Assembly (NCBI GenBank): GCA_021800035.1
Contig: JAJYZJ010000004.1
Location: 1 to 64,000 of the forward strand
Direction: 5' to 3'
Length of the DNA stretch: 64,000 bases
Source of the DNA: an archaeon
GTDB lineage: Archaea > Thermoproteota > Thermoprotei_A > Marsarchaeales > Marsarchaeaceae
The position numbers and the translations under genes were made by a program. Shown here one piece after another: positions 5,705 through 55,812 of this stretch. Each line of letters begins with the position of its first letter. Position 1 is the first letter of the stretch. A model generated the notes under the pieces. It saw nothing but the letters and a program-made list of their open reading frames with translations, was not told the origin of the DNA and did not search any database.

Positions 5705-7150
5705 CTAATGGGCACTGGGGCGAAGGTCCCTAAGCCTCTTTGCCTTGGCGTCTAGGTCTCCCCTGGTAAACCTCGAAAGCGTGTTCGCACCAAGTATTTC
5801 GACATTAACCCGGAGCCCCACCGCGAGTGCGAGTTCCTCGGATAGCTTTTTACCGACCTGAGACCAGTGAGACCTTTCCACTGCGGGGTTAACTTCGACT
5901 CTAACGAGCATCTCGTCGAGCTCCCCAGTTTTTGTCAGGACTATCTCGTATTCGTTGCCAAGCTCCTTGAACGATCGAATGACCTCTTCTACGGCGCTCG
6001 GGTAGACGACCGTGCCACGAATTTTGAGCATGTCGTCCACCCGTCCCAAAAGCCCTCCCATCGCCCTTCCAAATGTCCTACCGCACTCACAGATATCATC
6101 GGTGTATTTCATCAGGTCTCCCATTACATACCTGAAAGTTGGGTACGATATGCTCATTAGATTTGTGACAATCGTGATCCCTTTTTCTTCCTTGCCGACG
6201 GGCTCATAGGTATCGGGGTCGACTACCTCAACAATGGCCATATCTTCCGAAATGTGGTCGGCGACCGGGCGGTCGTGGTGTTTATCCTCTTCAGCGCAAG
6301 AATAACCCAGCGCTCCCCCCATGAACGCTTCTGTATGGCCGAAATAATCATGAGTGGTGGCTGACCAGTCGTCTTCGACCCTCTTCTTGGTTGCGGGAAC
6401 GCACGCTCCCGGCTCTGCCATCATTATGACATGATTCACTTCGGTGTCTTTTGCAGGGTCGACGCCGGCCTTCCGGGCTTCTTCGGCAAGGTGCATGACG
6501 TAAGACGGGACGCCAATTAGTACTGTTGATTTAGTCTCCCTCAGGAAGAATAATCGTCTTTTGGAATCCATTCCTCCTCCAGCGACCACGGGACACTTTA
6601 TGACATTAGCTCCGTAATGTGTTCCCCACATGCCGGGAAAGGGTCCATATACTGTCGCGTTGAACAGTATGTCTCCAGGTCTAATTCCAAAGGCCCAGAG
6701 AGCTCGTGCATAGAGGTAAGTCCAATTGTCCTTGTCCGAGGCGGACACCATAAATATTCTTGGTTTTGCTGTGGTACCGCCGGTGCTTTCAATCATGAAT
6801 CCGTCTTTCGACCATTCTTCCATGGTCATGCAATGGAAGTCGCCGAAAGGCGGGTGCTCGGTTTCACTGATTGCAAAGTCTTGTTTCACAGTGAGGGGGC
6901 CTTTTACGATATCTGCAGTGGTCTTGAAATCCTCGGGCCTAAGTTTCAATTCTTTAAATTTCCTATGATAATATGGACTATTGTCGTAAAGATACCCAAC
7001 TACCGCGCGAAACTTTTCGTTCCTTACTTCCTCAAGCTCTTTTCGAGGCATCGTCTCGACTCTAGGGTCCCAGTAGTTGCCTGAGCTCGGGCCATACTTG
7101 TTGTGAATATAGCTGTTGACCAATCCAGCCCATTCTTGCCTACTAACCAT
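5705..7150 (-). CDS. Phenylacetate-CoA ligase-like AMP-forming ligase
   Basis: ESTGGTTAKPRIFMVSASDKDNW, FGHTEAFMGG, GRVDDMLKIRGTVVYPSAVEEVI. Confidence 0.88.
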   Translation of the reverse strand: MVSRQEWAGLVNSYIHNKYGPSSGNYWDPRVETMPRKELEEVRNEKFRAVVGYLYDNSPYYHRKFKELKLRPEDFKTTADIVKGPLTVKQDFAISETEHPPFGDFHCMTMEEWSKDGFMIESTGGTTAKPRIFMVSASDKDNWTYLYARALWAFGIRPGDILFNATVYGPFPGMWGTHYGANVIKCPVVAGGGMDSKRRLFFLRETKSTVLIGVPSYVMHLAEEARKAGVDPAKDTEVNHVIMMAEPGACVPATKKRVEDDWSATTHDYFGHTEAFMGGALGYSCAEEDKHHDRPVADHISEDMAIVEVVDPDTYEPVGKEEKGITIVTNLMSISYPTFRYVMGDLMKYTDDICECGRTFGRAMGGLLGRVDDMLKIRGTVVYPSAVEEVIRSFKELGNEYEIVLTKTGELDEMLVRVEVNPAVERSHWSQVGKKLSEELALAVGLRVNVEILGANTLSRFTRGDLDAKAKRLRDLRPSAH

Positions 7151-7216: not shown

Positions 7217-8416
7217 CTAGGGTCGCTCGAAGACAGTAGCAATACCCTGCCCGACTCCGATGCAAAGCGTCGCGAGTCCGTATCTGGAGCTTCTCCTCTT
7301 CATCTCGTGAACTAACGTTACGGCCACTCTTGCTCCGCTGCAGCCCACCGGATGGCCAAGGGCAATGGCTCCACCGTTCGGGTTCAATCTTTCTCTCCTG
7401 ATAGGCAGTTCTTTCAGGACCGAGAGCACTTGGGAAGCGAAGGCCTCATTCAGCTCGACAAGTTCCATTTCTTCGAGACCAAGACCCAGTCTTTGAAGGA
7501 TCCTTCGAGTTGCAGGCACTGGTCCAATGCCCATGAAGCTAGGGTCAACTCCTGCGACCGCGCTACCTATAATCTTGGCAAGTGGTTTCAAGCCCAGCTG
7601 GTCGCATCTTTCTCGAGACATGACCAGAGTGCCTGCAGCCCCGTCCGAAATGGGACTGGAATTCCCAGGCGTGACTGTTCCCCCCGCCCTGAATATAGGC
7701 TTCAGTTTGGCCAAGGCTTCAAGGCTGGTATTCTCTCTCGGGCCTTCGTCCTTTTCTACAGTCGCGTCCACATCACCATTGGATACTGCCACGGGTAGAA
7801 TTTCATCTTTGAGTTTGCCAGATTTTGTTGCTTCAACTGCCTTTCTGTGGCTCTGGAGCGCGAATTCATCTTGCTCCTCTCTAGAAATCCGGTATTTCTC
7901 GGCCAAATTTTCCGCGGTTTCGCCCATAGAGAGCGGCGGATATAGTTTGGTCATCTTCGGATTGACAAATCTCCACCCAATAGTGGAATCGAATATCAGT
8001 GGAGTTCTTTCGAATGGTCTGGCTGGTTTCGCGAGAACATAAGGAGCTCTTGTCATGCTCTCCACTCCACCGGCTATGGCAATTTCGCAAGAGCCAATCG
8101 CAATCGCGTTCGCGGCTTGGTTTATTGCTTCGAGGCCGGAGCCGCAAAGCCTGTTAACGGTGACCCCAGCCACGGAAGTAGGAAGTCCCGATAGCAAGAC
8201 AGCCATCCTCGCGACATTTCTGTTGTCTTCTCCTGCCTGATTAGTGCAGCCAAAGTAGACGTCGTCAATTAAAGATGAATCTAGGTTGCTTCTTTTGACG
8301 AGCCTCTTGATTACCAGGCTCGCGAGGTCGTCTGGTCTTTCGTTTCGAAGTATGCCCCCGTGCTTACCTAGCGGAGTCCGGAGGGCATCCACAATAACGA
8401 CTTCTCGCAGTTCCAC
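7217..8416 (-). CDS. Acetyl-CoA acyltransferase / thiolase II
   Basis: VNRLCGSGLEAINQAANAI, GGVESMTRAPYV, NPNGGAIALGHPVGCSGAR, ATLCIGVGQG. Confidence 0.95.
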   Translation of the reverse strand: MELREVVIVDALRTPLGKHGGILRNERPDDLASLVIKRLVKRSNLDSSLIDDVYFGCTNQAGEDNRNVARMAVLLSGLPTSVAGVTVNRLCGSGLEAINQAANAIAIGSCEIAIAGGVESMTRAPYVLAKPARPFERTPLIFDSTIGWRFVNPKMTKLYPPLSMGETAENLAEKYRISREEQDEFALQSHRKAVEATKSGKLKDEILPVAVSNGDVDATVEKDEGPRENTSLEALAKLKPIFRAGGTVTPGNSSPISDGAAGTLVMSRERCDQLGLKPLAKIIGSAVAGVDPSFMGIGPVPATRRILQRLGLGLEEMELVELNEAFASQVLSVLKELPIRRERLNPNGGAIALGHPVGCSGARVAVTLVHEMKRRSSRYGLATLCIGVGQGIATVFERP

Positions 8417-8527: not shown

Positions 8528-8959
8528 ATGTACTACGAAGATTTTGGCCCGGATTACCACGGCGAGACCAAAGGAAGAACAGTGACGGAAACCGATATCG
8601 TATTATTTGCGACAATGACAGGTGCACTGAATTCCGCATTTCTTAATGAACAATTCGCGAAGAGTACGCAGTTCGGTGGAAGAATTGCTCCCGGTTTTCT
8701 TACAGCATCGATTGCAACTGGCCTAATTTATCAGCTTCCAAGCTCTCCGTTCGAAGGGGGTTTTGTGGCTTTGTTAAATGCCACGCTGGCGGCGCAAAAG
8801 GCCGTAAAAATAGGCGACACTTTGAGCTGTCGTGTATCAGTTAGGAAAAAGATGGACAAGGGAACTCGGGGAATTGTAGTGCTTCACACTGAAGTGCTCA
8901 ATCAGTCAAATGAGAAAGTAATGGAAATTGATCATGTAATCATGGTGAATAAAAGATAG
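8528..8959 (+). CDS. MaoC-like dehydratase
   Basis: YYEDFGPDYHGETKGRTVTETDIVLFATMTG...FGGRIAPGFLTASIATGL. Confidence 0.88.
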   Translation: MYYEDFGPDYHGETKGRTVTETDIVLFATMTGALNSAFLNEQFAKSTQFGGRIAPGFLTASIATGLIYQLPSSPFEGGFVALLNATLAAQKAVKIGDTLSCRVSVRKKMDKGTRGIVVLHTEVLNQSNEKVMEIDHVIMVNKR

Positions 8960-9113
8960 TTCTGGGGCCCGCCGGACAAGTTTTTAGTGTCTTATTGCTC
9001 GTAGGGCCTTGGCCAGATTTTTGGCCGGGCAGACGGAGCCAAGTACTACGGCTGCTAACAGGGTCCTCGTTCAGGAACGTATAAGAATCTCCGGCAAGTC
9101 AGGAATTTAGCAG

Positions 9114-11561: not shown

Positions 11562-12083
11562 CTATCCTTCTTTCTCGTTTTCCTTTCCGCGGGGCTCTCT
11601 GCCGAGATCTTTGGCGGCCTTCATGACCAAGGAGGCCTCTTCGATTGCTTTCACAATATTCGGATAGCCTTCACATCTGCAGATATTGCCAGTCAGAGCC
11701 TTTGATATGTCCTCGGAGTTAGGTTCAGGGTTATTTCTTAGGAGTGCGAGGGCTGACATAAGGATACCAGCAGTGCAGAAGCCGCACTGAACCGCGAAGT
11801 TCTTGCGGAAGCTGACCTGGAGAGGGTGTAGACCAGTCTCGCTCGCCATGCCCTCTACGGTCTCGACTGATGCGCCCTCCGCTTGAACGGCGAGAATGAG
11901 ACAGGACTTTACGGCCTCGCCGTTCATGACTATCGTGCACGCCCCGCAGTGACCAGTATCGCACCCCATATGAGTTCCAGTTAGCCCGGCCACGTCGCGG
12001 ATGTAGTTTACTAGCAGCAGTCTGTCTTCCACAACGTCTGAATAGCTCTTTCCGTTTATCTTAATGTTAATCGATCGGTTCAA
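11562..12083 (-). CDS. Molybdenum hydroxylase small subunit, [2Fe-2S]
   Basis: GCDTGHCGACTIVMNG, QCGFCTAGILMSA, GNICRCEGYPNI: both [2Fe-2S] motifs present. Confidence 0.95.
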   Translation of the reverse strand: MNRSINIKINGKSYSDVVEDRLLLVNYIRDVAGLTGTHMGCDTGHCGACTIVMNGEAVKSCLILAVQAEGASVETVEGMASETGLHPLQVSFRKNFAVQCGFCTAGILMSALALLRNNPEPNSEDISKALTGNICRCEGYPNIVKAIEEASLVMKAAKDLGREPRGKENEKEG

Positions 12084-12085
12084 CC

Positions 12086-12973
12086 CTATTCGGCTCCAGT
12101 TGCCCTGTTGACCGCCGTGAGTAGCGAGCGCGCTACCAGTACCTTCGCTATATGCGTGCGATATTGTGCACTTGCTTTGTAGTCAGAGATGATCTCGGAA
12201 CCGAGATGGAGCTCTTGAGAAGCTTGTCGAATGTTTTCGGCAGAGGCTGCTTTGCCCATGAGACTTTCGCCCAATTCCGCCATAATTCTGGGTTTGGGCA
12301 GGAGCGCGCCCAGAGCCACGGTCACCTCTTCAAATTTGCCATCTTTAATCGCGACGATCGAGGCGACGTTGACAGTAGCAAACTCCTGCGGCATCGTGCT
12401 GAACTTCATAAATGAATGACCTTCCCTGGTTCCCGAACTAGGCTTCTTTTCCAGGATCACCTTCTCCACGAGTTCGTCTCCATTAAGAACAGTCGTATAA
12501 GGTCCCTCGAAGAAATTTGAGGCCGCTATTGTCCGCCTGTTCGATGCTGATACCAAGGCGATTTTCGCGTTGAGTGCGGTAAGAACTGGTGCATAATTAC
12601 CTGCCGGGTCTGCATGCGAAATGCTCCCGCCGATAGTGCCTCTGTTCCTGACCTGCTCATCTCCAACACGCGCTGCGGCCTCGCAAAGAATGGGGAACCT
12701 CTCCATTACCTCTTTCGACCTCGCTAGCTTTGAGTGGGTGCATGTTGCGCCGATATTCAACCCCATGCCTTCTTCGGATATGTTCCCCAAACCGCTGATG
12801 TGGCCGATATCTACTAATACGGCGGGGCTCGCGAGTCTTAGCCGCATTGCGACCAGCAGGCTCTGACCGCCTGCTATTACTTTTGTGCCGTCGGTGGCTG
12901 CGAGCAGCTTGCAGGCTTCTTCAACGCTACTTGCTCTTTTGTAATCGAATTTTGGTGGAGTAAGTGTATACAA
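12086..12973 (-). CDS. Molybdenum hydroxylase FAD-binding subunit
   Basis: KVIAGGQSLLVAMRLRL, RNRGTIGGSISHADPAG. Confidence 0.93.
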   Translation of the reverse strand: MYTLTPPKFDYKRASSVEEACKLLAATDGTKVIAGGQSLLVAMRLRLASPAVLVDIGHISGLGNISEEGMGLNIGATCTHSKLARSKEVMERFPILCEAAARVGDEQVRNRGTIGGSISHADPAGNYAPVLTALNAKIALVSASNRRTIAASNFFEGPYTTVLNGDELVEKVILEKKPSSGTREGHSFMKFSTMPQEFATVNVASIVAIKDGKFEEVTVALGALLPKPRIMAELGESLMGKAASAENIRQASQELHLGSEIISDYKASAQYRTHIAKVLVARSLLTAVNRATGAE

Positions 12974-12983
12974 GGTGACACCC

Positions 12984-15467
12984 CTAGGCTGGGCGAGAGC
13001 GGCTGCTTGCGCTCTCTCCCAAATTGTTCTTTGATAAGAAGCGTGACCATATCCGTTCGGCCGTGAACGGCACTGTATCTATGTCCGCGTTATATTCATA
13101 CAGCGCGTCTTGTATCGCGATTAGAAGAGCCGCTGGTCCTGTCATGTTGTCACCTTCGCTCACGCCTTTGGTGCCAAGCGGGGTGAAAGGAGACTTCTTT
13201 GCCGCCGAGCCAAAGATAGGTGTGAAAAAGTCTTCGGCCGTCCTGACGTAGTAATCTCCGAATGTGATATTAAGCGGTTGACCGCTGTCATCATGGATTA
13301 GTTCTTGATGCAGTGCGTGCGATGCTGCTTGATTTGCAGCTCCCACACAGAGCTGCTCGACAATGCCCGGGTTGATTGAGCCACCTGAGTCGTGAACGCT
13401 TGCATACTTCAAGATGCTCACACTTCCCGTGTCACGGTCGACCTCTACTGCGGCAGCAGTGCCAATGAAGCCATAAGTCGCCGAAGCATTCACCTTGTTG
13501 TCGAGAGTTGCGGGGCCGAGCGTCTCAACGTTGAAAGTCCGTGTCACGGAGAGTGTGTGGTCTCCCCCTTTCAACGCATCACTCCCCGGGTTCCAGTAGA
13601 CGGTTCCAACAAGTCTCTTACTTGAGATTTTTAGGTCCCTTCTTGATTTTGAGAAGAGCACTCCGTTTTCCATTACTATATCGTCGGCGCTTACGCCAAG
13701 AAGTTTCGAAGCGGCTTCAGCAAGCTTCTTCCTCATATCTAGTGCAGCACTATAGACAGCACTGATGCCGAGCGAGCCGAATCTGGAAGCATATGTACCG
13801 GACGATATTGACCAAGAGACGTTAAATGTGTCGACACCAGTGAGCACCCTAACGTCTTCCGGATTGACACCGAGGACGCTGGCTACAAGCTGAGCCGCGA
13901 CGGTTTCGTGACCCTGCCCCTGCGGGCAGCTGTCAAGGCGGACTACGATGTGCCCGTCAGGCTCAATCTTTAAGGTCGCCGAGTGCTGCCCGCCGCTATG
14001 CGGCATGAATGTCGCTTTCTGGCGTTCCTCTTCCGGAATGGCCAAATCGAGATAGGCCATGTTAGATACTGATGGCTCAATACCGACGGCGATGCCAAGG
14101 CCGACAAGGCGCCCTTCCCGCCTTTTCTCGAGTATGTCCGCCCTTGCACCGTCCAGATCGAATATCTTCTTTAGCTTCTCAATTGCGGCCCCATAGTCCC
14201 CGCTATCGTAGACTCCACCAGAAGCTGTTGTGTATGGGAAGTCTCTTGGCTGGATGAAGTTTCTCCTCCTCAATTCGAGAGGGTCATTACCCGTTATCTT
14301 TGCACACTTATCCACCAGTTTCTCTAGGGGAATGCAAAGATGAGGCCTCCCGAACGCGCGGATTGGGCTCGTCGGAAGTGTGTTCGTAGTAACATACTCC
14401 CCTGATATCTCCAAGTTGGATATCTTGTATGGTCCGGTAAAGTTACTAACCGACTTCAGAAGGTGACCTGGCTCGGGAGATCTGGGATAAGCTCCAATGT
14501 CGTCCGTTATCCGAGCCTTCAAGCCCAAGAAGTCGCCATCTGCAGAGAGCGCCATCTCTAGATGGGAAAGCCTAGTGGCGGCCCGCGTGCTGCCAACGAA
14601 GTGCTCCATTCTTGTTTCGATCCACTTTACGGGCACGCCCGTAAATATTGAGCATGCACCGACAAGCGCCATGTATGGATAAACTGCAAGCTTGGTCCCG
14701 AAAGAGCCGCCGATGTCGCCTGGAACAATCACTCGGAATCGGTCTTGGCTCAGGCGCAGAGCCTTCGCGACCACATAGGCCAGTGTAAAGGGACCTATGA
14801 AATTGCACCACTCGGTAAGCACATCCGAACCCTTGTCATACTCGGCCACAACTCCAAAGGTTTCCATAGGGGGCACCGTGTACCCGTTCACCCTTACGTC
14901 AACGGATACCACTTTAGCGGCTTGCTCGAAGGCATTGCCCACATCCCCGTAACTGAAAGTTTTCTTCCAGACCGTGTTGCTGCCCACGGCTTCATGCACC
15001 TTGGGTGCTCCTTGGGCCAATGCTTTCTCAATATCTGCAACAACTTGCAGCGGTTCGTAGTCTACGTTTACCTTGGAGGCCGCGTCTTCGGCTATAGCTC
15101 TGCTTCTTGCAATCACTACTGCAACGGGTTCGCCAGCATATCTTGCCCGGTCGGTTGCAATCGGATAATACCGGATCGGGCTGCGGAGCGCCAAGGGCAG
15201 GGGATCCATTACTGATAGGAGTTCGGCCGCGGTTAACACAGCTCTGACCCCGGGAACCTTTATGGCATCCTCGGTGTCTATCCGTTTGATCTTCGCATGT
15301 GCATAAGGGCTCCTCAGAATCACCGCATAGTGCGTTCCGGGTGGTACTGAAAGGTCATCCAGAAACTTTGCCTTTCCCGTGGTCAGTCGTAAATCTTCGA
15401 GTCTGGGATAGGCCACGCCAACATACGTTTGCTCGGTTCGCTTCTCCTGTGACGACTGGACGGTCAT
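12984..15467 (-). CDS. Molybdenum hydroxylase large (Mo-cofactor) subunit
   Basis: Xanthine oxidase/CoxL architecture: GKAKFLDDLSVPPGTHYAVILRSPYAHAKI, PGDIGGSFGTKL, PIRAFGRPHL, GQGHETVAAQL, GTKGVSEGDNM. Lacks the AYxCSFR active-site motif of form I CO dehydrogenase. Confidence 0.92.
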   Translation of the reverse strand: MTVQSSQEKRTEQTYVGVAYPRLEDLRLTTGKAKFLDDLSVPPGTHYAVILRSPYAHAKIKRIDTEDAIKVPGVRAVLTAAELLSVMDPLPLALRSPIRYYPIATDRARYAGEPVAVVIARSRAIAEDAASKVNVDYEPLQVVADIEKALAQGAPKVHEAVGSNTVWKKTFSYGDVGNAFEQAAKVVSVDVRVNGYTVPPMETFGVVAEYDKGSDVLTEWCNFIGPFTLAYVVAKALRLSQDRFRVIVPGDIGGSFGTKLAVYPYMALVGACSIFTGVPVKWIETRMEHFVGSTRAATRLSHLEMALSADGDFLGLKARITDDIGAYPRSPEPGHLLKSVSNFTGPYKISNLEISGEYVTTNTLPTSPIRAFGRPHLCIPLEKLVDKCAKITGNDPLELRRRNFIQPRDFPYTTASGGVYDSGDYGAAIEKLKKIFDLDGARADILEKRREGRLVGLGIAVGIEPSVSNMAYLDLAIPEEERQKATFMPHSGGQHSATLKIEPDGHIVVRLDSCPQGQGHETVAAQLVASVLGVNPEDVRVLTGVDTFNVSWSISSGTYASRFGSLGISAVYSAALDMRKKLAEAASKLLGVSADDIVMENGVLFSKSRRDLKISSKRLVGTVYWNPGSDALKGGDHTLSVTRTFNVETLGPATLDNKVNASATYGFIGTAAAVEVDRDTGSVSILKYASVHDSGGSINPGIVEQLCVGAANQAASHALHQELIHDDSGQPLNITFGDYYVRTAEDFFTPIFGSAAKKSPFTPLGTKGVSEGDNMTGPAALLIAIQDALYEYNADIDTVPFTAERIWSRFLSKNNLGESASSRSRPA

Positions 15468-15545: not shown

Positions 15546-16550
15546 CTAGGAATCCCCGACTTTGGGATTACCCACAGCCGCCCGCATGGCGTAAAGTACA
15601 TCGTCTCTTGCGCTTTCCTTCCTAATGATCGGGTAGACAATGGGGTAGACTCCGGCCGTGATGTACCGGTTTATTCGATTCTGAACCTCTTTTGGAGAAC
15701 CGCTGAGTGTAACCTTCTGGACTAGGTCGTCAGACACAAGCTTAAGCGCTTCAGAATGCTGATTCTTGTTCCATAGAGCTTCGATTTGTTTTGCGACATC
15801 ACCGTACCCTACGCTCTGGATTATGTGATGATAGTGAGGAGATGCGCAGTAGAATGCTACCACCTTTTTCATTGCCTCCATAGCATCGTCGGTGTCGCCG
15901 CAAAGTGTCATCGAAAGTGCATAGATTCCGGCACTGGACTTGTCGCGGTCCGCTCGCTCGGCGCCTATCTTCAGATTTTCGGTGATTTCCTTAATTCCTT
16001 CGTCCGTGAGCATGTTTACAATAACACCGTCAGCAACTTCTCCAGCAAGCTGCTGCATCTTCTTGTTCAGGCCGGCCAAATAGATTGGCACACTTTTTCG
16101 AGCGGGTTCTTCTCTCAGCTTGAAATCCTTCAAGTTGAAATATTTGCCGCCATAGCTGAATCTTTCTCCGCTAAGCAGCCGCTTGATTAGGGTCACATAT
16201 TCCTTCATTCGGCCAAGGGGATCCTCTATTTTGAGACCATGGCCTCTCTCAATAAAGCCTATTCCGCCAGTCCCTAGTCCTAGGAACGCCCTCCCCTTTG
16301 AGATATTGTCGATGGTGGCTATTGCCATGGCGAGCAATGTCGGAGTTCTGGAGTAAATGTTCACAATCCCTGTACCTACGCGTATCTTCTTAGTCCTGTC
16401 AGCACTAAGCGCGAGCAGGGAGAATGCTTCCTTCCCTGACTCCTCTGTCAGCCAGAACCCATCATAATCCAGTTTTTCCGCTTCTTGAACGTAACTCAGT
16501 ATGTCGCTAAGTGGATGGTCTCCGGAGTGAATGGTCAGTCCCGCACGCAA
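15546..16550 (-). CDS. LLM class (luciferase-like) flavin/F420-dependent oxidoreductase
   Basis: AEKLDYDGFWLTEESG, VGTGIVNIYSRTPTLLAMAIATIDNISKGRAFLGLGTG. Confidence 0.92.
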   Translation of the reverse strand: MRAGLTIHSGDHPLSDILSYVQEAEKLDYDGFWLTEESGKEAFSLLALSADRTKKIRVGTGIVNIYSRTPTLLAMAIATIDNISKGRAFLGLGTGGIGFIERGHGLKIEDPLGRMKEYVTLIKRLLSGERFSYGGKYFNLKDFKLREEPARKSVPIYLAGLNKKMQQLAGEVADGVIVNMLTDEGIKEITENLKIGAERADRDKSSAGIYALSMTLCGDTDDAMEAMKKVVAFYCASPHYHHIIQSVGYGDVAKQIEALWNKNQHSEALKLVSDDLVQKVTLSGSPKEVQNRINRYITAGVYPIVYPIIRKESARDDVLYAMRAAVGNPKVGDS

Positions 16551-16804: not shown

Positions 16805-17617
16805 CTAAGGGTTGAACTGTGCCTTTAGCCTGAGGAGTCTCTCCGGAGAAAAGTCAATGGGAAGTTCGTAGGCGGTGGTAAGCAGAACCGCACAGCCCAT
16901 TTCTCCAATTGCGTCAGCAACTTGGGCTTCGGTGACGCCTTCGAAGTTTATGGCTACCACGGAACCATACGCTGACTTTGCTCTAAGGCGAAAGTCCCCA
17001 GCAAGAGAGAATCCCGTCTCCTGAGCCTGGGTCATTATTGAGTCTCCAGTCTCTTCGAGATATAGTATTGCTGTAGGCGTTCGAGATGCAAGGCCGATAT
17101 TCGCAATTGTTGAATAGTTGGCGGGGGGATTCTGATTTGCCTTCTTCTCAAAGAGCAGAATGCATGTGCATCCCGCTTCTATGTACATCCTCTCCAAATT
17201 CGCCAAGTTATCCACGCACAGTACCGCATCTGAACAATGGGACTGGAAGGCTTCTTCTAGATAACCTGTCCCGAACATCACACCCAAAACGTCCTTGTCT
17301 TCTATCTTGAGGCTCTGTGAGAGCTTTGCCGTTGTTTCGATAGAGAGCTTGGGCGCCCCCATGTTCCTGATATCAGTCTCGCGGAGCTCGGACTTCCCTA
17401 ACTTTCCGGACGCTTCGTACGAGGCTAGGGGGCTAGCGTCGTTCACAACTCCATCGAGATTTAGCGCCTTTGACGTTTGGATTAGAGAAATCGCTCTGCC
17501 TGAACTGGTGTCGAACTCATTCTGGAGCACTCCTGCGACTCTGGTTGAGAGCCCGAACACAATCGGGACAAAAGCAACTCCTCTCCCTGCGTGAAGTATT
17601 TGGTTGATTGGCGTCAT
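16805..17617 (-). CDS. Protein of unknown function with weak URO-D-like N-terminal flavour
   Basis: 270-aa ORF; start overlaps the end of HyuA (17614-17617). N-terminus ILHAGRGVAFVPIVFGLSTRVAGV...LNLDGVVND faintly resembles uroporphyrinogen decarboxylase-like proteins; no decisive motif. Confidence 0.6.
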   Translation of the reverse strand: MTPINQILHAGRGVAFVPIVFGLSTRVAGVLQNEFDTSSGRAISLIQTSKALNLDGVVNDASPLASYEASGKLGKSELRETDIRNMGAPKLSIETTAKLSQSLKIEDKDVLGVMFGTGYLEEAFQSHCSDAVLCVDNLANLERMYIEAGCTCILLFEKKANQNPPANYSTIANIGLASRTPTAILYLEETGDSIMTQAQETGFSLAGDFRLRAKSAYGSVVAINFEGVTEAQVADAIGEMGCAVLLTTAYELPIDFSPERLLRLKAQFNP

Positions 17618-19590
17618 TCCTTTCGGCCTATTCTGAAATTGCCAAACTCGTCCACTAACAGGTGATAACCGCTCTCGAGCACGACAGTGCTATCTTCTGA
17701 CTCCAGTATCGCAGGGCCCCGAACCCTGTGGCCGCATTCCAGTTTGTTAAGGTTGAATACACGGGTATCTTCTGGCCCGCTTTTATTCCAGCATACCATT
17801 CTTGTTCTCTTAAGTGCGGAATCCAAACTTCCGGGAGAGGTTGATGAGCTTTTGATAAATACAGGCTTACGTGACTCCGCTCGCCAAGTTAGCGAGTAAA
17901 TAAGAGGTCCCAGCTTCTGCCCGGTATGACCCCTAGATCCCCCGAGCACGTCCTGCATCGTTACTGACATATTCTGGCTATAGAGGCTCGACTCGAAGCT
18001 GCCCTGCCGTATATCCAGTCCTTCTCCCGCTATATCCATGGACGCCCGTTCAGTCAGCGCATTTCTCGTTCTTTCAAGCGCCACCTCATCCGGAATTACC
18101 TCTGAATAGTAGCTATGGCTTATATCAAGCATATTGCAACCCATCGCACTGAATTCCGAAGAGAACGGGAATACGTACGCCGAGCCAATCTCATCGATTA
18201 TGTTCATGAGCGAACAAATATGAAGTGGTCCTCCGCCACCGTAACAAAACATACTCAGGTTTATTTTCTTTTCGAGAAGGAGTGAACGTAACGCCTTGAT
18301 CATACTCTCCTCGGCTGCTTCTCTTATCGCCCAGCTCGCCTCAAGCAGGTTCAAACCGAGCGGATCGGCTACTTCCTTTCTTATCGCCGCTTCCGCCTTT
18401 TCTGTGCTTAGTTGAATCCGTCCTCCAAGGAAGTTCGAGGGGTCTAGCAAACCCAGAATCAAGTTTGCGTCAGTTAGGGTGGGTTCAGTGCCACCTCTAC
18501 CAAAGCAGGCAGGGCCGGGGGTGGAACCCGCGCTTCTGGGTCCCACTTGTATCCTCCCATCGACTACCCTGACCAGCGAGCCCTCACCCACTGGGGCTGA
18601 ACGCAGTCGAACCATGGGCTGAAATACGGTCATTCCTTCGAGTTCGGTATAGGGAGTTAGTAGGCTTCCTTCTCCGACTAGAGCGCAATCCAGACTCGTG
18701 CCACCTATATCCATTGTAAGCACTTCTTGCAGGCCGTAGAGTTGCTTTCCAAGCAGTCTTGCGCCCAGAACACCTGCAGCAGGGCCAGACCCTATTGACC
18801 CTGCCGCACTTGCCCATGGGATTGTAGAAAGCGTGCCATCCGACTTGACGAGCAGAAGCGGATGCCTGTGGGAATTGGCTTTCAGAAAATCTTCAGCTCT
18901 ATAGAGATACGTTCGCATTGAATGATGGACATAGGCTCCCACAATGCTCGTGCAAGTCCTCACACGGTCGTCGCTTATTTTGGCCATTTCGTGGGAGAGA
19001 AATATTGGAACTCTACCAAGATACTGTGGCGGATATTCGTTCCTGACCAAGTCTCTAACTGCTAGCTCGGCCGCGGGATCGTCAAATGATCCCTTGAGTG
19101 CAACGACTACTGCCCTCGCCCCATGATCCACGAGCCAGTCCAGAGTTTCGCGCGTCTTGGTCATATTGAGTTGAGCTACTTTCCCCCCTTCCGACTTCTC
19201 CAATATTTCGACCCCTCTGATGAGCTCTGAATCCACAAATGTTCTGGCCTCAGGGCCGCTCCCATACACGTCGCTTTCGTGTCCCGCGGTCACTAAAAGG
19301 CCGATTTTTGTACCTGTCCTCGTTATTATTGCATTAGTTGAAATCGTCTGCGAATACCTGATATCCTCACACGCAGATAGAAAGTCGGCCAGCGGCATTT
19401 GAAGTTTTTCAGCCTCCGCTTCAAGTACTTCCCTGAAACAAACAGTCAGATCGAATGGAGTCGTGAGTACTTTCGCCTTCGTGGTTTTCCCAGTCGCATT
19501 GTTCATAACAATACTATCAGTGAAGGTGCCACCGGTATCAATGCCGACGGTATAGGTCAACAGGTTCACACCGGAAAAGGCACTGGCCAC
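17614..19590 (-). CDS. HyuA-type ATP-dependent subunit (hydantoinase/oxoprolinase A; acetone/acetophenone carboxylase-like)
   Basis: YTVGIDTGGTFTDSIV, YSQTISTNAIITRTG, TMDIGGTSLDCALVGEG. Confidence 0.93.
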   Translation of the reverse strand: MASAFSGVNLLTYTVGIDTGGTFTDSIVMNNATGKTTKAKVLTTPFDLTVCFREVLEAEAEKLQMPLADFLSACEDIRYSQTISTNAIITRTGTKIGLLVTAGHESDVYGSGPEARTFVDSELIRGVEILEKSEGGKVAQLNMTKTRETLDWLVDHGARAVVVALKGSFDDPAAELAVRDLVRNEYPPQYLGRVPIFLSHEMAKISDDRVRTCTSIVGAYVHHSMRTYLYRAEDFLKANSHRHPLLLVKSDGTLSTIPWASAAGSIGSGPAAGVLGARLLGKQLYGLQEVLTMDIGGTSLDCALVGEGSLLTPYTELEGMTVFQPMVRLRSAPVGEGSLVRVVDGRIQVGPRSAGSTPGPACFGRGGTEPTLTDANLILGLLDPSNFLGGRIQLSTEKAEAAIRKEVADPLGLNLLEASWAIREAAEESMIKALRSLLLEKKINLSMFCYGGGGPLHICSLMNIIDEIGSAYVFPFSSEFSAMGCNMLDISHSYYSEVIPDEVALERTRNALTERASMDIAGEGLDIRQGSFESSLYSQNMSVTMQDVLGGSRGHTGQKLGPLIYSLTWRAESRKPVFIKSSSTSPGSLDSALKRTRMVCWNKSGPEDTRVFNLNKLECGHRVRGPAILESEDSTVVLESGYHLLVDEFGNFRIGRKE

Positions 19591-21635
19591 TCTCCGTAAA
19601 ACCTCAGCGCGGTATCGGGTGGCCTAAGCTTGTTCCACTCTCTTTCGAAGCTCTCGAATGGAGTGCCTCTTTTTCTCCTTTCCAGTCTTTCGATTTTTCT
19701 GCGCTCTTCAGTTGCCTTTCCATCAATATGGAGACCATCTTGTTCAAACACAACCATGTACACGTTTTCGGCTGCCCATTTCGACACTCTCCCAGTTTCG
19801 ACATCTCTAAGCACCAAATTCGGGTCTCTCTCGATCGGATCCCCGTATCCTCCGCCTCCACCGCTACACTGAGCCACTAGCCCTCCCTTGCGTATAGCTC
19901 TGGTTGGTGTCGAATTGGGTTGTATTCTGATACCCGCATCTTGTCTGATTAGCCTCACTAGTGACGTATCCGACGTCGGAACCTTGCTGTCGGTGGAATA
20001 GAGCGAGCTCGCGTCGTCTACGGTTACAACTGGTCTAGTCCCCGCGGGGTAGCCCCCGAAAACTCCATGGGCCACAGGAAACCTTTGGCCAACTCCAATG
20101 GTCGTAAGGGATATCGTTTCCGAGTTATGTATCATGTAACCAAACGAAACGCCTGTGCCTCCCCTATACTTACCAGGCCCCCCTCCATCGGGAGTAAAAC
20201 TTCTCCATACTGTGAGCACGGGGTAGGCCGATTCGTCCTGTTCGCAGTCGGCGGCCTCTGCGTAACCGCAGTACCAGAATCCAGCAGAGTCTACTCCGTC
20301 TCTGCTAAATCTCGCGCCTCCACCTCTCGAATTCCCTATTGCGATAAGGTGAGTGGTCACCTCTTTCCCCCACTGGTTTTTTCCGGAAACCCCTAGCGCC
20401 CTCAAGCCTCCATTGAGGGGTAGTGCCAAGTACTCTTCCTTCCTGTATTCAGACACGTTATAGAGAGCCTTGATAAACAGAATTTGTAGCGCGCTTATGA
20501 CCACTGGCAGAAGATATACAACATGGGAGACAGCCGCATCTTGTTTGGCATTCAGACATGAGCCAGGTGTAGTCTTGAACTCGAATGGCACAAGACAACC
20601 TGAGCTCGCCGGTACATCACTCAGCAGGTACTGAAATACCAAGCTTGCGAATACTGCTTCGACCGTGTGCTCGAACGAGTTGTAAGGGCCTGGGGTCTGT
20701 GGAGACGCGTGCGTTAGGTCGAACACCATCCTGTCCTTCTTCTTCGTAAGTGAGATGGGTAGTCTCAGGAGGCCCTCCCCAAACCCAACTGTGTCGAGAA
20801 AGGCAACGTGTCTGTAAGTTCCGTCGGGAATCTTGCTTATTCGCTCCTTGACAGACTCCGCAGTATCGATAATCATCTTTCTCAGAGTACCCAAGACAAA
20901 CTCCGCCCCCTTTTTTTCGACAATTTCAAGAATTCTCTTCCTCAGGGTGAGGCAGGCTGCCACTCTAGCAGCTAGGTCATTCGTCATCATCAGTGGATAT
21001 CTAACGTTGTTTTCGAACAATTCAATTATGTCGCTCTTTAACTTGAACTGTTCGCCAATTTTGATTGGGGGGACCTTCAGACCCTCATCATATCTCGACC
21101 TTGCGGTGCTCGGCATCCCACCCGGCTCGGTTGCACCAGTTTCCGGTTCATGTGACGCAGAAGCTACCCACGCTATAATTCGTCCAGCCCAGTAAATAGG
21201 CATGAAAGTTATCATGTCAGGATTATGAATGCCTCCGTAGACTGCTTCGTTGCAGAAAAATATGTCCCCATCCTTTACTCCTACCATTGGATCGTCAAGA
21301 TAGTGTTTGAGCACGAATTTTATGGGAATTATTCCGGTTACGACATGAAGGTAGGTCCCTACTTCTGCAATTGACAGGTCTCCGTTAGCTGTGTATACTC
21401 CGTGCGCGGTATCGCCCGCCCGAATGAGCGTAGAAATGCCCAGCTTTTGAAGCACTTCCCTCGACTCTCTGCACGCCAATTCTACTCTCATAGTATAGAT
21501 TGAATAATCAACCCGGTCGAGCTTTGACATCGCGGCCAATTCTTCGGCGGTCGGAGGTTCAGGCTTGAACCGACCTTCTTTTACCAGTTCCAAGTCAACC
21601 GGCAAGCTGGTCACCTCACTTCCTCGATGATGCAA
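19566..21635 (-). CDS. HyuB-type subunit (hydantoinase B; acetone/acetophenone carboxylase-like)
   Basis: DGDIFFCNEAVYGGIHNPDMITFMPIYWAGRIIAWVASASHEPETGATEPGGMP; GGGPGKYRGGTG; GGGGYGDPIERDP. Confidence 0.95.
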   Translation of the reverse strand: MHHRGSEVTSLPVDLELVKEGRFKPEPPTAEELAAMSKLDRVDYSIYTMRVELACRESREVLQKLGISTLIRAGDTAHGVYTANGDLSIAEVGTYLHVVTGIIPIKFVLKHYLDDPMVGVKDGDIFFCNEAVYGGIHNPDMITFMPIYWAGRIIAWVASASHEPETGATEPGGMPSTARSRYDEGLKVPPIKIGEQFKLKSDIIELFENNVRYPLMMTNDLAARVAACLTLRKRILEIVEKKGAEFVLGTLRKMIIDTAESVKERISKIPDGTYRHVAFLDTVGFGEGLLRLPISLTKKKDRMVFDLTHASPQTPGPYNSFEHTVEAVFASLVFQYLLSDVPASSGCLVPFEFKTTPGSCLNAKQDAAVSHVVYLLPVVISALQILFIKALYNVSEYRKEEYLALPLNGGLRALGVSGKNQWGKEVTTHLIAIGNSRGGGARFSRDGVDSAGFWYCGYAEAADCEQDESAYPVLTVWRSFTPDGGGPGKYRGGTGVSFGYMIHNSETISLTTIGVGQRFPVAHGVFGGYPAGTRPVVTVDDASSLYSTDSKVPTSDTSLVRLIRQDAGIRIQPNSTPTRAIRKGGLVAQCSGGGGGYGDPIERDPNLVLRDVETGRVSKWAAENVYMVVFEQDGLHIDGKATEERRKIERLERRKRGTPFESFEREWNKLRPPDTALRFYGEWPVPFPV

Positions 21636-23749
21636 TTGTCAAACCTGTCAACCGAGACCCGTCCTCCTTCCGGAACCACTATCGTGGTATCTTCGCCTTC
21701 GACAATGGCTGGCCCATCAATGGAATTTCCCGGCTCCAACTTGTTCAGGTCGAATATTGGAGTCAGAACAAATCCTGGTTTTGGCCAAAACACTTCCCGC
21801 CTGCCCTTTACTGCTTTGGACGCGTCCGACGACCTAAGTTCATGGCTCTGGAGGGGCATACCTGGTTCAACCGGAGCCTGAGCAAGTAGACGGATGCTCT
21901 CTATTCTGATTATGGCATGAGGAAATGTAATGCCCGCACTTTTTAACAGCTGAGATTTGAACTTCTGTATAATTGCAACTATGTCAGAGGGAGTATTTAC
22001 ACGTGAAACTGGAGAAGGAATTCTCTCAACCATGAGCTGAGTCTCGTATCGCATTTCCAGTTCAAGGGAAGTCACCATTCCGCGCGCATCCAGCCCTTCG
22101 GATGCAATATCCCTGGACGCAATCTCGTGCATCGAATTGACAGTGGCATTGAAAGTATCCGCGCAGGCGCGGTACGATAGCTCCGAATCTTCCTCCGGCG
22201 CTGATAGGGTGATGCCCACACTTCTTTCGTAGATGTGGCGCACATCCAGAAAGGAGGCTCCCAAAGCGTCGAACACTGCGCCAAATCTGAAGCAGTATAT
22301 CGTTCGAGCTCTCACTTGTTTGTTCACTCCGAAACAGTGAACCGGTCCGGCACCGCCGAACGAAAACATCGCAAACTCTCGCGGGTCGTAACCCTTGAGT
22401 GATATGTCCGTCGCGATTTCTGCTCCCATCTTTTCGTCAATCACAGTTTTCACTGCCGATGCCGCCTCCTCAACACTCGCTCCCAGTTTGTCCGCCACCT
22501 TCTCCTTGAAGACTCGGCGAGCCTTGTCTTTGTTCAGCCTGATACGTCCCCCGAGAAAGAATTTATCGTTCAGGTAACCGAGCAGAAGGTCAGCGTCAGT
22601 CACCGTTGGCTCTCTGCCCCCTAGGTCGTAGCAAACAGGTCCTGGATTGGAGCTTGCGCTCGCGGGGCCGACTTCGAGCCTGCCCCCCATTCCTTCATTG
22701 AACCAGGCGATTGAGCCTCCCCCAGCGCCGATTGACTTGTTTTCGATATAAGTTGAATTCACGGCCCACCTGTCAATCACTGGGTTCGACTCGTAATTGC
22801 CGAGCATGCCCTCTGAAATCACGCCCATGTTGAACGTTGTGCCGCCCATTTCTGCGGTAACTATATTCTTCAGGCCGTACAACCTGCCTATTTCCAAGCT
22901 CCCTACCATCCCCGCCACTGGTCCACCGTTGTATGTATCTGTCACCTTGGTCCGGGATAATTTCGCGGTACCTCCCGTATTGTGCACCAACATGAGTGGC
23001 TTCCTGTATCCCATCGACCTTATTTGGGCGCCCAGTTCATTCAGCTGTTCTCCCATCTGCATGTGCAAATAGGCATTCAAAATTGTGAGCATCGTACGGG
23101 GATACTCGAGCCACTTCGGCTGCACCTCACTAGACAGGAATACCGGCACACTTCCCAGATATGCCTCTGGCAGCTCTTCTTCTATCACCTTCGCAACGTA
23201 TTTCTCGTTCGATGGATTCATGAACGACCAGAGGAACGAAATTACGATCCCCCTTGTACCTCTCGTAATTAGCTTACGCAATGCCTCGACCACTTCTGTC
23301 CTTGAGGGTCTAGCAAGAACGTTTCCCATCGAATCTGTCCTCTCCTTTATACCAATTATTGCATCCTCGGAGATCAAGGGGAGGGGGTTGGAAGCAGCCC
23401 CGGTCTTACGCTGGAGGTGCCGCGGCAGTCCGTCCCCCCACTGCCTCGATCTACCTATGAGTATGACGTCTTCTAGACCCGCCGTGGTAAGCAGACCCAG
23501 ACGGGCGCCCTTACGCTGTATCAGATCGTTTAAAGCTAGAGTGGTTGAGTATCGAATAATGCCAGTCTCCTCGAACAGAGTCTGCGCTCCGATTTGGAAT
23601 TGCTTCGAGGCTTCGAGAATCGCATTGACCGCTCCAAGAGATAGGTTGTAAGGCGTTGTGGCGACTTTTCCCCACTTGACTAGGCCGCCTCGGCTTACAA
23701 CCGCTTCCGTAAAGGTACCGCCGATATCTATATCTATGGTTGTCGTCAA
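21611..23749 (-). CDS. HyuA-type ATP-dependent subunit, second copy
   Basis: TIDIDIGGTFTEAVV, YSTTLALNDLIQRKGARLGLLTTAG, TAEMGGTTFNMGVISEG, FSFGGAGPVHCFG. Confidence 0.94.
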   Translation of the reverse strand: MTTTIDIDIGGTFTEAVVSRGGLVKWGKVATTPYNLSLGAVNAILEASKQFQIGAQTLFEETGIIRYSTTLALNDLIQRKGARLGLLTTAGLEDVILIGRSRQWGDGLPRHLQRKTGAASNPLPLISEDAIIGIKERTDSMGNVLARPSRTEVVEALRKLITRGTRGIVISFLWSFMNPSNEKYVAKVIEEELPEAYLGSVPVFLSSEVQPKWLEYPRTMLTILNAYLHMQMGEQLNELGAQIRSMGYRKPLMLVHNTGGTAKLSRTKVTDTYNGGPVAGMVGSLEIGRLYGLKNIVTAEMGGTTFNMGVISEGMLGNYESNPVIDRWAVNSTYIENKSIGAGGGSIAWFNEGMGGRLEVGPASASSNPGPVCYDLGGREPTVTDADLLLGYLNDKFFLGGRIRLNKDKARRVFKEKVADKLGASVEEAASAVKTVIDEKMGAEIATDISLKGYDPREFAMFSFGGAGPVHCFGVNKQVRARTIYCFRFGAVFDALGASFLDVRHIYERSVGITLSAPEEDSELSYRACADTFNATVNSMHEIASRDIASEGLDARGMVTSLELEMRYETQLMVERIPSPVSRVNTPSDIVAIIQKFKSQLLKSAGITFPHAIIRIESIRLLAQAPVEPGMPLQSHELRSSDASKAVKGRREVFWPKPGFVLTPIFDLNKLEPGNSIDGPAIVEGEDTTIVVPEGGRVSVDRFDNCIIEEVR

Positions 23750-24010
23750 TGGTCAACTGCCCTACCTACAAGCGCTTTCTCGTGAGTCGTCCGATTTTCT
23801 GGCACTGGGCGGGTCATTTGCGCGACATCCCAGATGGCGGCGTCGAATGAGTCCCCTTGCGAGTAATGCTTGCCAGTATACTGGGTGAGGGCCGCCACTT
23901 TCGTTCCTCCGAAAGGCTCCAAGGGCGAAGTTGGCTCTTGTAAATATGCTGATGAAAGTTCAAATCAACCGCCTTTGCCGATGGCTACAGAGAGGCACCA
24001 ACTCAAAGAG

Positions 24011-24376
24011 TCATCTCTGGCTGGCATCCGCCGAGGTCAGGGGTTGGCTGAAACCATGCTTCGACTTCAGGTCATCGATGTCAATCTGCAGATCGTGCGT
24101 AATAGGGTGGCCCGGAGGAAGCGCCTCGCACTCGAGCATAATGCCGCAGCTAGGACAATAATACTCAAGAATCTTGCACCAATTCGGGTCGGGTGCAAAG
24201 GTAAGGTCTGCAGCGGTAACTTGCGGGTAAACTTCCCTTGGGTCCCTAGGATAGACGAGACACCCTTTCTTGTAGTTCTCACGAGCCGGTCCCAGATTCC
24301 ATCCGCACCTATTGCACACCCACGACTCGTCATCGAATTCAATATCTAGATATTCGGTGATCTTGACTCTGTTCAA
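24011..24376 (-). CDS. Acetone carboxylase gamma / acetophenone carboxylase ApcB-like zinc protein
   Basis: WVCNRCGWNLGPARENYKKGCLVYPRDPREVYP...FAPDPNWCKILEYYCPSCGIMLECEALPPGHPITHDLQIDIDDLKSK. Confidence 0.87.
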   Translation of the reverse strand: MNRVKITEYLDIEFDDESWVCNRCGWNLGPARENYKKGCLVYPRDPREVYPQVTAADLTFAPDPNWCKILEYYCPSCGIMLECEALPPGHPITHDLQIDIDDLKSKHGFSQPLTSADASQR

Positions 24377-24475
24377 TTATACCATCACTTAAAACGAGCC
24401 TGCCATTCCCGGTTTATCAGGTTGGCGCGAAGCTCCGAGCAGCACTTCCCCCAACTGGGCCGAAGATCTGTTCGT

Positions 24476-25141
24476 TCAGTAACTCGCACTGTGCGAATCA
24501 TCACAGGAAATGACTCTGAAGGGTGCTCCCGTTTTCCGGGCCACGTCCTCTACCGACAACCCTGGGCTCAAATCTCTCAGTACGAGACCTTGCGCAGTGA
24601 CATCGAAGACGGCCAATTCAGTGTATATTCTTGACACGGCTCTTTTTGCGGTCAACGGAAAGGTGCACTCTTTGACAATCTTTGGATTGCCATCTTTTGT
24701 GGTCTGGGTCATCATCACCCAAAGTCTTTTCGCGCCTACTGCAAGGTCGGCTGCCCCCCCGACTCCACCTATCTTCTGACTCGGCATTTTCCAGTTCGCG
24801 AGGTCTCCATACTGTGATACTTGGTAGGCGCCTACAACCGCTAGATCAAGGTGCTTTCCCCGGACGATAGTGAATGACACTGAACTATCGAAAAAGCAGC
24901 CTCCGCGATTTACGGTCGCGAATTGTTTCCCGGCATTTACTATGTCCGGGTCTTCTTGCCCAGGCGCTGGCGAGGGACCCAATCCCAAGATTCCGTTTTC
25001 ACTGTGGAACATCACTTCTAAGTCTGCTCTTATATGATTTAGGACGCTTAGCGGACTGCCGACACCCAAATTTACGTACCATCCGTCTTCGAGGTCTCGG
25101 GCTACTCGTTCTGCAATCTGGTCCTCGGTAAGTATTGGCAT
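24476..25141 (-). CDS. 3-oxoacid CoA-transferase subunit B
   Basis: YVNLGVGSPLSVLNHIRADLEVMFHSENGILGLGPSPAPGQEDPDIVNAGKQFATVNRGGCFFDSSVSFTIVRGKHLDLAVVGAYQVSQYGDLANW; retains the SENG catalytic motif. Confidence 0.95.
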   Translation of the reverse strand: MPILTEDQIAERVARDLEDGWYVNLGVGSPLSVLNHIRADLEVMFHSENGILGLGPSPAPGQEDPDIVNAGKQFATVNRGGCFFDSSVSFTIVRGKHLDLAVVGAYQVSQYGDLANWKMPSQKIGGVGGAADLAVGAKRLWVMMTQTTKDGNPKIVKECTFPLTAKRAVSRIYTELAVFDVTAQGLVLRDLSPGLSVEDVARKTGAPFRVISCDDSHSASY

Positions 25142-25148
25142 TTATCAT

Positions 25149-25805
25149 TCACCTCGGTTCCTCGGACATTTCAATGACTCTGTCTACAAAGATTCCAGGG
25201 GTATGCACTACTTCTGGGGGAATACCTTCCTGCTCAATCCTTTCACATTGCGCTATTGTTATACTGCCTGCACTAGCCATAATCTGATTGAAATTCCGGG
25301 CAGTCCCTTTATAGACTAGGTTTCCCCAATGATCGGCTCTCTGGCATTTGATGAGTGCGAAGTCAGCGGTGAGGGCGCTCTCTACAAGGTAATCTCGACC
25401 GTGTACTGAGATTGTGATCTTTCCCTCTGAAAAGTAGGTGCCCACTCCTGTGGGCGTAAGAATTCCTCCGAGTCCAGCTCCACCGGCTCTGATTCTTTCT
25501 ACTAGCGTGCCCTGCGGAACTAGCTCTAGGTCAACCTCGCCCTCTTCTAGCAGCTGTTTGACTCTATCGGAACCCGGCACGGTGGGATAGGAGCAGATGA
25601 GTTTACGGACCTGACCGCGCAGAATCAGCATTCCTAACCCAGCTTTATCTCTTCCAGCATTATTGGAAATCACAGTGAGACCCTTTACTCCCTTCTCCGA
25701 CACTGCTTCCACCAGTTTGTTCGGAGTCCCAGCTTCTCCAAACCCCCCGATTAGCAGGCTTGAACCGTCCTTTATACCGCTAACAGCTTCAGAAACTGAA
25801 CCCAC
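25149..25805 (-). CDS. 3-oxoacid CoA-transferase subunit A
   Basis: IKDGSSLLIGGFGEAGTPNKLVEAV, LVPQGTLVERIRAGGAGLGGILTPTGVGT. Confidence 0.95.
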   Translation of the reverse strand: MGSVSEAVSGIKDGSSLLIGGFGEAGTPNKLVEAVSEKGVKGLTVISNNAGRDKAGLGMLILRGQVRKLICSYPTVPGSDRVKQLLEEGEVDLELVPQGTLVERIRAGGAGLGGILTPTGVGTYFSEGKITISVHGRDYLVESALTADFALIKCQRADHWGNLVYKGTARNFNQIMASAGSITIAQCERIEQEGIPPEVVHTPGIFVDRVIEMSEEPR

Positions 25806-25813
25806 TACTTTGT

Positions 25814-26707
25814 TTATCGTACACTGGTCTCCTCGGGACTACCATCAAACAGTCGGACAGCGTTATCGTGCAATATTTTCTTCCTGACTTCGTCGCGTAT
25901 CGGCAAGTCCGCAAATTCCTTAAGCCATCGCTCGGGGTTCATCAGAGGAAAATCCGACCCAAACATCACTTTATCTTGCAGGAGCGTGTTTGCGTACTGA
26001 ACGAGTGATTCAGGAAAATATTTGGGCGCCCAGCCGGACAGGTCGATATACACGTTGGATTTGTGTCTCGCTACGGCAAGCATTTCTTCTTGCCAAGGCC
26101 ATGAGGGGTGCGCTCCGATTATCCTAAGTTTTGGAAACTCGGCAGCTACATCATCCAAGTACGGAATCGGTCTTCCAAACTTTAGGCGAATTCCTTGTCC
26201 ACCCGGCGTACCGGCTCCTATTCCGGTCGTGCCTGTATGAAAAATTACAATCAGGTTTAACTCCTGACAAAGTTCGTAGATTGGTGCGAATCTCTTGTCG
26301 TTAGGAAAGAATGCTTGAGAAAGCGGCTGGAATTTTACTCCTCTAAGGCCAAGCTCTGTCGCGCAGCGCCTGATTTCCTTGAGCGCAGCTTTGCCTTTCC
26401 AAGGGTCCACGCTTGCGAATCCGATAAAAACGTCGGGGTAGCTGCGGACCGCCTGAGCCACCTCGTCATTGGAGATTTTCAGTCCTGTCTGCGACTCTTG
26501 GTCCACGTCGAAGATCACTGCGCGGTAGCCAATTCTCCGGTAAAGAGAAGCAATGTCGTCAACTCCCTGCGCTTGCGGGGCCGTCTTGAAGTATGCTTGG
26601 GCGGCTGCGAGCCGGGGATCAGTTACAGTCCTTCGGTCGCCTGTCCTGAGATGGACATGCACATCTATCCCTTTAGAACCAGAGTCCTTGCTATCTGTTC
26701 CTTCCAC
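25814..26707 (-). CDS. Amidohydrolase family 2 metal-dependent hydrolase
   Basis: DVHVHLRTG, FHTGTTGIGAG, GAHPSWPW, FGSDFPLMNP; paralogue of 3582-4433. Confidence 0.9.
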   Translation of the reverse strand: MEGTDSKDSGSKGIDVHVHLRTGDRRTVTDPRLAAAQAYFKTAPQAQGVDDIASLYRRIGYRAVIFDVDQESQTGLKISNDEVAQAVRSYPDVFIGFASVDPWKGKAALKEIRRCATELGLRGVKFQPLSQAFFPNDKRFAPIYELCQELNLIVIFHTGTTGIGAGTPGGQGIRLKFGRPIPYLDDVAAEFPKLRIIGAHPSWPWQEEMLAVARHKSNVYIDLSGWAPKYFPESLVQYANTLLQDKVMFGSDFPLMNPERWLKEFADLPIRDEVRKKILHDNAVRLFDGSPEETSVR

Positions 26708-55785: not shown

Positions 55786-55812
55786 ACCCGAACTCCTGAA
55801 GAGCGCCCTCAG

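Follow-up and report, generated by a model that had tools for sequence, protein, structure and literature searches.

Acetophenone carboxylase (Apc), a type of enzyme known from bacteria, carboxylates ketones at the expense of ATP. That of Aromatoleum aromaticum, ApcABCDE (core, PDB 5l9w; epsilon, PDB 9fou), comprises alpha, alpha', beta, gamma and epsilon subunits, is encoded in the order alpha'-gamma-alpha-beta-epsilon and is accompanied by a benzoylacetate-CoA ligase. Weidenweber et al. proposed annotating an Apc by its subunit set, the subunit lengths, four Cys residues in gamma and an R/KERxDSxG fingerprint found only in alpha (PMC5214803). Hydantoinases, by comparison, consist of alpha and beta only, and epsilon is missing from some Apc-like operons (PMC5214803). 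A 2017 structure paper recorded a single biochemically characterised Apc and regarded the assignment of its ketone-kinase and bicarbonate-kinase subunits as tentative. Acetone carboxylase (AcxABC) shares the zinc gamma family and the HyuA/HyuB-like subunits with Apc. Here, we analyzed a window of 64,000 nucleotides (positions 1 to 64,000 of contig JAJYZJ010000004.1, assembly GCA_021800035.1) from an archaeon of the family Marsarchaeaceae, phylum Thermoproteota. We propose, with a probability of about three in four, that its minus-strand genes at 24376–16805 encode an Apc-type carboxylase with an alpha, alpha', beta and gamma core and a dissociable epsilon subunit.

The initial annotation had described contiguous minus-strand genes for CoA-transferase subunits A and B, a four-Cys zinc protein, two HyuA-like subunits and one HyuB-like subunit, and both Pfam and NCBIfam confirmed this content. 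Among the window proteins, Pfam returned Acetone_carb_G (PF08882) at 120 bits (cut-off 21), Hydantoinase_A twice and Hydantoinase_B once, and the top NCBIfam models were ApcB, ApcC, ApcD and ApcA for gamma, alpha, beta and alpha', respectively. The zinc protein gamma (24011..24376, minus strand, as are all window genes given below at 5705–26707 unless noted; apcB type, 121 aa; NF042974, 145 bits) belongs to the acetone/acetophenone carboxylase small subunit family, as first suggested, and matched Apc chain 5l9w_C with an E-value of 1.8e-38, compared with 5.5e-11 for acetone carboxylase gamma. The candidate ketone kinase alpha (21611..23749; apcC type; NF042975, 631 bits) matched 5l9w_B at 7e-178 and acetone carboxylase at 1.4e-88. 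For beta (19566..21605; apcD type, HyuB-like; NF042976, 468 bits), the corresponding values were 1.7e-133 for 5l9w_A, 5.4e-46 for acetone carboxylase and 2.2e-41 for caprolactamase. The top structure match of alpha' (17614..19560; apcA type, a second ASKHA kinase; NF042960, 383 bits) was the ApcA chain (5l9w_b, 1.2e-92), only narrowly ahead of the other Apc chain. Each core subunit therefore best matches its Apc counterpart, in agreement with the Apc-type composition proposed at the outset, and the core subunits are identified as such by sequence comparison.

Furthermore, the window set agrees with the features of Weidenweber et al. in its subunit set, lengths, four Cys and alpha-only fingerprint. 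Cys21, Cys24, Cys74 and Cys77 of gamma aligned, and the protein is short, as in Apc, whereas acetone carboxylase gamma has 164–207 aa. The fingerprint reads KERTDSMG in alpha, and alpha' has EILEKSEG instead. Beta retains an Asp-His-Asp-His metal site, which is non-specific in that hydantoinases have the same site; AcxABC, which has three subunits only and longer ones, has Glu for Asp there. The likeness to A. aromaticum Apc covers the four core subunits (alpha, alpha', beta and gamma), a probable epsilon, the subunit lengths, the zinc Cys, the metal ligands and the alpha fingerprint, at about 34–42% identity for the large subunits. The locus differs in its gene order (gamma-alpha-beta-alpha'-epsilon), in having a CoA-transferase instead of the ligase and in altered ATP-site acids of alpha.

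Phylogenetic analysis was consistent with these matches. The beta tree resolved distinct clades for hydantoinases, acetone carboxylases and Apc, and the window protein fell in the last of these together with ApcD and the Haloterrigena protein (94/96). In the HyuA-type tree, alpha and alpha' fell in the corresponding Apc clades, with a support of 100/98 for that of alpha' (94/96, 95/95 and 100/98 for the Apc clades of the large subunits). Proteins of SKYB10 (JANXDH01), an Aigarchaeota metagenome-assembled genome (MAG), were the sisters of the window subunits, followed for alpha and beta by Haloterrigena and A. aromaticum. In approximately unbiased (AU) tests, a grouping with acetone carboxylases was rejected for beta of the window and SKYB10 (p = 0.006), as was one with hydantoinases for the corresponding alpha' proteins (p = 0.004). 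The large subunits thus branch with Apc and not with hydantoinases, although some AU tests were borderline. The choice between the acetone and acetophenone types, both named in the initial annotation, was decided for the latter by the matches, trees, lengths, Cys, ligands and fingerprint.

The fifth gene, a 270-aa open reading frame (ORF; 16805..17617) that no Pfam or NCBIfam family matched, probably encodes the epsilon subunit (apcE type) as a divergent URO-D-like protein, which adds a likely epsilon to the ApcABCD core recognised earlier. SKYB10 has a 271-aa relative (30%, E = 5.75e-34) immediately after alpha', on a contig other than that of gamma-alpha-beta; because the two genes are still paired there, alpha' and the 270-aa protein appear to travel together. 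The SKYB10/window profile aligned over 246–264 columns with a URO-D-family protein of Haloterrigena alkaliphila and beat all 200 shuffles, and the hhalign probability rose to 89% when an ApcE fragment was added to the Haloterrigena side. This Haloterrigena protein is encoded between alpha' and gamma and yields matches to Pfam URO-D (3.1e-13) and to the PDB entry 9fou_A, titled 'Acetophenone carboxylase epsilon subunit' (7.5e-5). The SKYB10 copy outscored 500 of 500 shuffles against the ApcE fragment, and the link of the window protein to ApcE runs via the SKYB10 and Haloterrigena intermediates. When all candidate epsilon proteins were forced into one alignment, the resulting profile missed ApcE and matched an unrelated kinase, and it was discarded. 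The fifth proteins of the Rhodococcus and Neorhizobium Apc-like sets showed no convincing link to ApcE.

All genes lie where first reported and are intact in each of two related MAGs; ten of them gave dN/dS values of 0.06–0.23 between the window and a MAG of the same genus (G001). The initial annotation had reported overlaps between consecutive genes. Of these, the 4-bp overlap (ATGA) that joins the 270-aa ORF to alpha' was upheld, whereas two 25-bp overlaps arise only if the most upstream start codon is chosen. The beta start was moved from 21635 to a TTG at 21605, as the genus-mate has a stop inside the extension and an ATG at the position of this TTG, and SKYB10 beta begins at the same point. 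Likewise, the alpha' start was moved from 19590 to a TTG at 19560, matching the N-termini of SKYB10 alpha' and ApcA. The corrected starts leave 5-bp gaps between alpha and beta and between beta and alpha'. Gaps of 261 bp between gamma and alpha and of 99 bp between CoA-transferase B and gamma make it only likely that the whole block is a single operon. The 261-bp gap (23750–24010) is mostly conserved in G001, with indels; read in the direction of the genes, it has no open frame, and it is possibly an internal promoter or a remnant. An Rfam scan of window positions 5000–37000 detected no RNA element.

The MAG contains an archaeal 16S rRNA (1455 bits, contig C126). Two extra small-subunit rRNA matches (contigs C59 and C61) had lower archaeal-model scores than C126 and may reflect contamination of the MAG. 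A near-identical block in the second MAG and the SKYB10 relatives (733-kb contig) argue against, but do not disprove, contamination as the source of the contig. For a tRNA-synthetase-like fragment at the contig end, no match outside the genus exceeded 37%, and the best came from genomes of the same family.

We compared the ATP site in 28 aligned HyuA-type sequences, including alpha of the window, G001 and SKYB10. In these three, Glu takes the place of two residues that are Asp in the other 25, namely the final Asp of GGTxTD and that of D(V/I/M/L)GGT; at the position of CapA Asp302, they carry Asn, where the other sequences have Asp or, for ApcA and plain hydantoinases, Lys. CapA Asp295 and Asp302 are a Mg/phosphate ligand and a substrate-pocket residue (PMC8453981). 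The altered motifs of the window alpha are DIGGTFTE for PHOSPHATE 1 (23705..23728) and EMGGTTF(N) for PHOSPHATE 2 (22832..22852), both identified by alignment. A degenerate DNA pattern for EMGGT[S/T]F, which also recovered the latter, hit only the window's genome and SKYB10 among 400 genomes of the phylum. As the changes are conserved across lineages at 63% identity, a functional rather than a decayed alpha site is suggested. The adenosine motif is SSNPGP in place of GSNPGP in the window alpha only. Alpha' keeps Asp at all three positions, with canonical PHOSPHATE 1 and 2 motifs. Apart from the altered acids, the substrate pocket of alpha follows ApcC and not the Rhodococcus/Neorhizobium subclade; five of seven residues (L81, F281 as Tyr, N282, P285 and I333) match or resemble ApcC, and Q344E and T345N differ from it. 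The ATP-site changes raise the tentative and rather doubtful idea of an altered division of labour, in which alpha would not be the usual ketone kinase (or would use another metal or substrate) and alpha' would carry out one or both phosphorylations.

An Apc-type beta turned up in this genus and in SKYB10 but in no other of the about 400 phylum genomes sampled. SKYB10 provides the closest relatives of gamma, alpha, beta, alpha' and epsilon (69, 63, 66, about 45 and 30%, respectively), with the same altered alpha motifs as the window; it differs in having gamma-alpha-beta and alpha'-epsilon on two contigs, with no CoA-transferase seen beside either. Plasmids of the haloarchaea Haloterrigena alkaliphila and Halorientalis marina carry full alpha', alpha, beta and gamma sets, as in the window, and Haloterrigena additionally has, close by, genes for a URO-D-family protein resembling epsilon and for a PaaK-like ligase. 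These sets differ in gene order and in their canonical alpha motifs, and the window beta and alpha are 37–40% identical to those of Haloterrigena. The order in haloarchaeal and bacterial plasmid sets is alpha'-gamma-alpha-beta-fifth gene, and in Haloterrigena alpha'-epsilon-gamma-alpha-beta. Plasmid clusters of Neorhizobium petrolearium and Rhodococcus combine the four core subunits with a fifth gene of 269–275 aa, and a CoA-transferase A/B pair adjoins the set of Neorhizobium, as in the window. Unlike the window, they form a separate Apc subclade with the alpha pocket T I H P I H L. In Rhodococcus jostii RHA1 pRHL2 (L023:12638-13600), a broken, frame-shifted CoA-transferase A gene lies right after the fifth Apc-like gene.

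A complete set in an archaeon had been expected to be notable. It is new for the phylum but not for archaea, given the haloarchaeal plasmids and an 'acetophenone carboxylase' reported on a Dead Sea fosmid in 2011 (PMC3236060). A CoA-transferase next to Apc genes is likewise already known. What is new is the Apc set in this phylum, the changed gene order and the altered alpha ATP site in both lineages.

By analogy with the characterised enzyme, one ASKHA subunit would phosphorylate the ketone enol and the other bicarbonate, and both phosphorylated intermediates would join at the metal site of beta to give a 3-oxoacid; gamma would be a structural zinc protein, and epsilon would be required for turnover. 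The adjacent 3-oxoacid CoA-transferase, subunit A (25149..25805; TIGR02429, 270 bits) and subunit B (24476..25141; TIGR02428, 282 bits), both above cut-off, would convert the 3-oxoacid into 3-oxoacyl-CoA, and the SENG motif of subunit B presumably carries the catalytic Glu. A 3-oxoadipyl-CoA-thiolase-like thiolase (7217..8416; TIGR02430, 535 bits with a cut-off of 597; TIGR01930 above cut-off) is a candidate for the last step, in which 3-oxoacyl-CoA would be cleaved to acetyl-CoA and acyl-CoA. It lies about 8 kb from the Apc genes, beyond two oppositely oriented genes. Plus-strand genes at 8528–10298, between the molybdenum hydroxylase and the thiolase, encode a MaoC-like hydratase and a type III CoA-transferase.

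Downstream of the Apc genes are an LLM-class (F420-type) oxidoreductase (15546..16550; PF00296, 252 bits, and NCBIfam) and a three-subunit molybdenum hydroxylase of the aldehyde oxidoreductase/carbon monoxide dehydrogenase family (11562..15467; Pfam and NCBIfam). Both are syntenic with the Apc block in G001, and we infer a link to the carboxylase pathway. An amidohydrolase 2 family protein (25814..26707; PF04909, 189 bits), also syntenic in the genus-mate, is encoded upstream of the CoA-transferase genes and is possibly co-transcribed with them. A PaaK-like CoA ligase (5705..7150) has a 26% relative adjoining the Haloterrigena Apc set. At 35117–36568, the window encodes a UbiD-family decarboxylase (TIGR00148 above cut-off), whose best specific resemblance is to phenylphosphate carboxylase beta; SKYB10 has a 29% relative about 8 kb away from its alpha'-epsilon pair. 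In the region 54691–57891, a 4-hydroxyphenylpyruvate dioxygenase gene (above cut-off) precedes genes for a fumarylacetoacetate-hydrolase-family protein and for a protein weakly resembling homogentisate dioxygenase; the region is likely a tyrosine/homogentisate degradation cluster.

Several results weigh against an Apc. The scores are far under the NCBIfam equivalog cut-offs (beta, for instance, reaches 468 of the required 1500), and the substrate therefore need not be acetophenone itself; most Haloterrigena and SKYB10 subunits likewise score below them. The PHOSPHATE motifs of alpha are non-canonical (GGTFTE, EMGGTTFN), with three ATP-site acids changed, although the literature does not treat altered PHOSPHATE motifs as excluding Apc membership. 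AU tests were borderline for alpha with hydantoinases (p = 0.074) and beta with hydantoinases (p = 0.049). With regard to epsilon, 41 of 500 shuffles scored as high as the window protein in direct comparison with the ApcE fragment, hhalign to that fragment alone gave no match for the window protein family, and an AlphaFold prediction from two near-identical input sequences reached a pLDDT of 29 and was not used. Finally, no substrate-supplying gene was identified for the carboxylase, and the neighbours that the window and SKYB10 share outside the Apc genes resembled each other too weakly to indicate a substrate.

The loss of canonical acids in alpha, together with the zinc subunit family common to both enzyme types, would also fit an enzyme of the acetone carboxylase kind with acetone or butanone as its substrate, in which one kinase subunit, the canonical alpha', performs both phosphorylations. 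True acetone carboxylases do occur in other archaea of the phylum: acetone-carboxylase-type sets were found in three other genomes (G054, G320 and G331), and an acetoacetate-CoA ligase adjoins those of G054 and G320. No such ligase was seen near the window Apc genes, and the acetone carboxylase assignment was rejected on the extra alpha' and probable epsilon, the 121-aa gamma and the exclusion of beta from the AcxABC clade, which leaves this explanation unlikely. In G320, an archaeon of the same class, the set (L017:2752-10115) comprises intact HyuB-like (781 aa), HyuA-like (761 aa) and gamma (192 aa) proteins with the ligase. In G054 (L016:11072-14490), the HyuB and HyuA frames are short, HyuA is split into two ORFs and the ligase is intact, so that the set looks partly deleted or decayed.

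Membership of the same superfamily and the borderline AU result for alpha leave room for an ATP-dependent, non-carboxylating amidohydrolase (hydantoinase, oxoprolinase or lactamase) with added subunits. Isochorismatase-type hydrolases, which are common in hydantoin-type pathways, lie near both archaeal sets, but the two are only 28% identical to each other. A plain hydantoinase or oxoprolinase was rejected on the zinc gamma and extra subunits, the trees and the AU tests. Moreover, hydantoinases have alpha and beta only (PMC5214803), the genome has its own two-subunit HyuAB pair on contig C33, and the adjoining 3-oxoacid CoA-transferase fits a 3-oxoacid product; we consider this reading improbable as well. 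Even less credit is given to a carboxylase of this architecture whose substrate is not a simple ketone. Such an enzyme would be in keeping with Q344E and T345N and with neighbours (LLM oxidoreductase, molybdenum hydroxylase and amidohydrolase) that do not spell an ethylbenzene pathway, and is opposed by the five ApcC-like pocket residues.

An Apc-type ketone carboxylase at this locus would place biotin-free carboxylation of this kind in a second archaeal phylum and would give a probable identity to a 270-aa protein without a Pfam or NCBIfam family. If the division of labour has indeed changed, the enzyme would be a natural half-site variant of a two-kinase carboxylase. With one kinase site altered and the other intact, this lineage may offer a natural test of how ketone and bicarbonate activation are divided between the two subunits.

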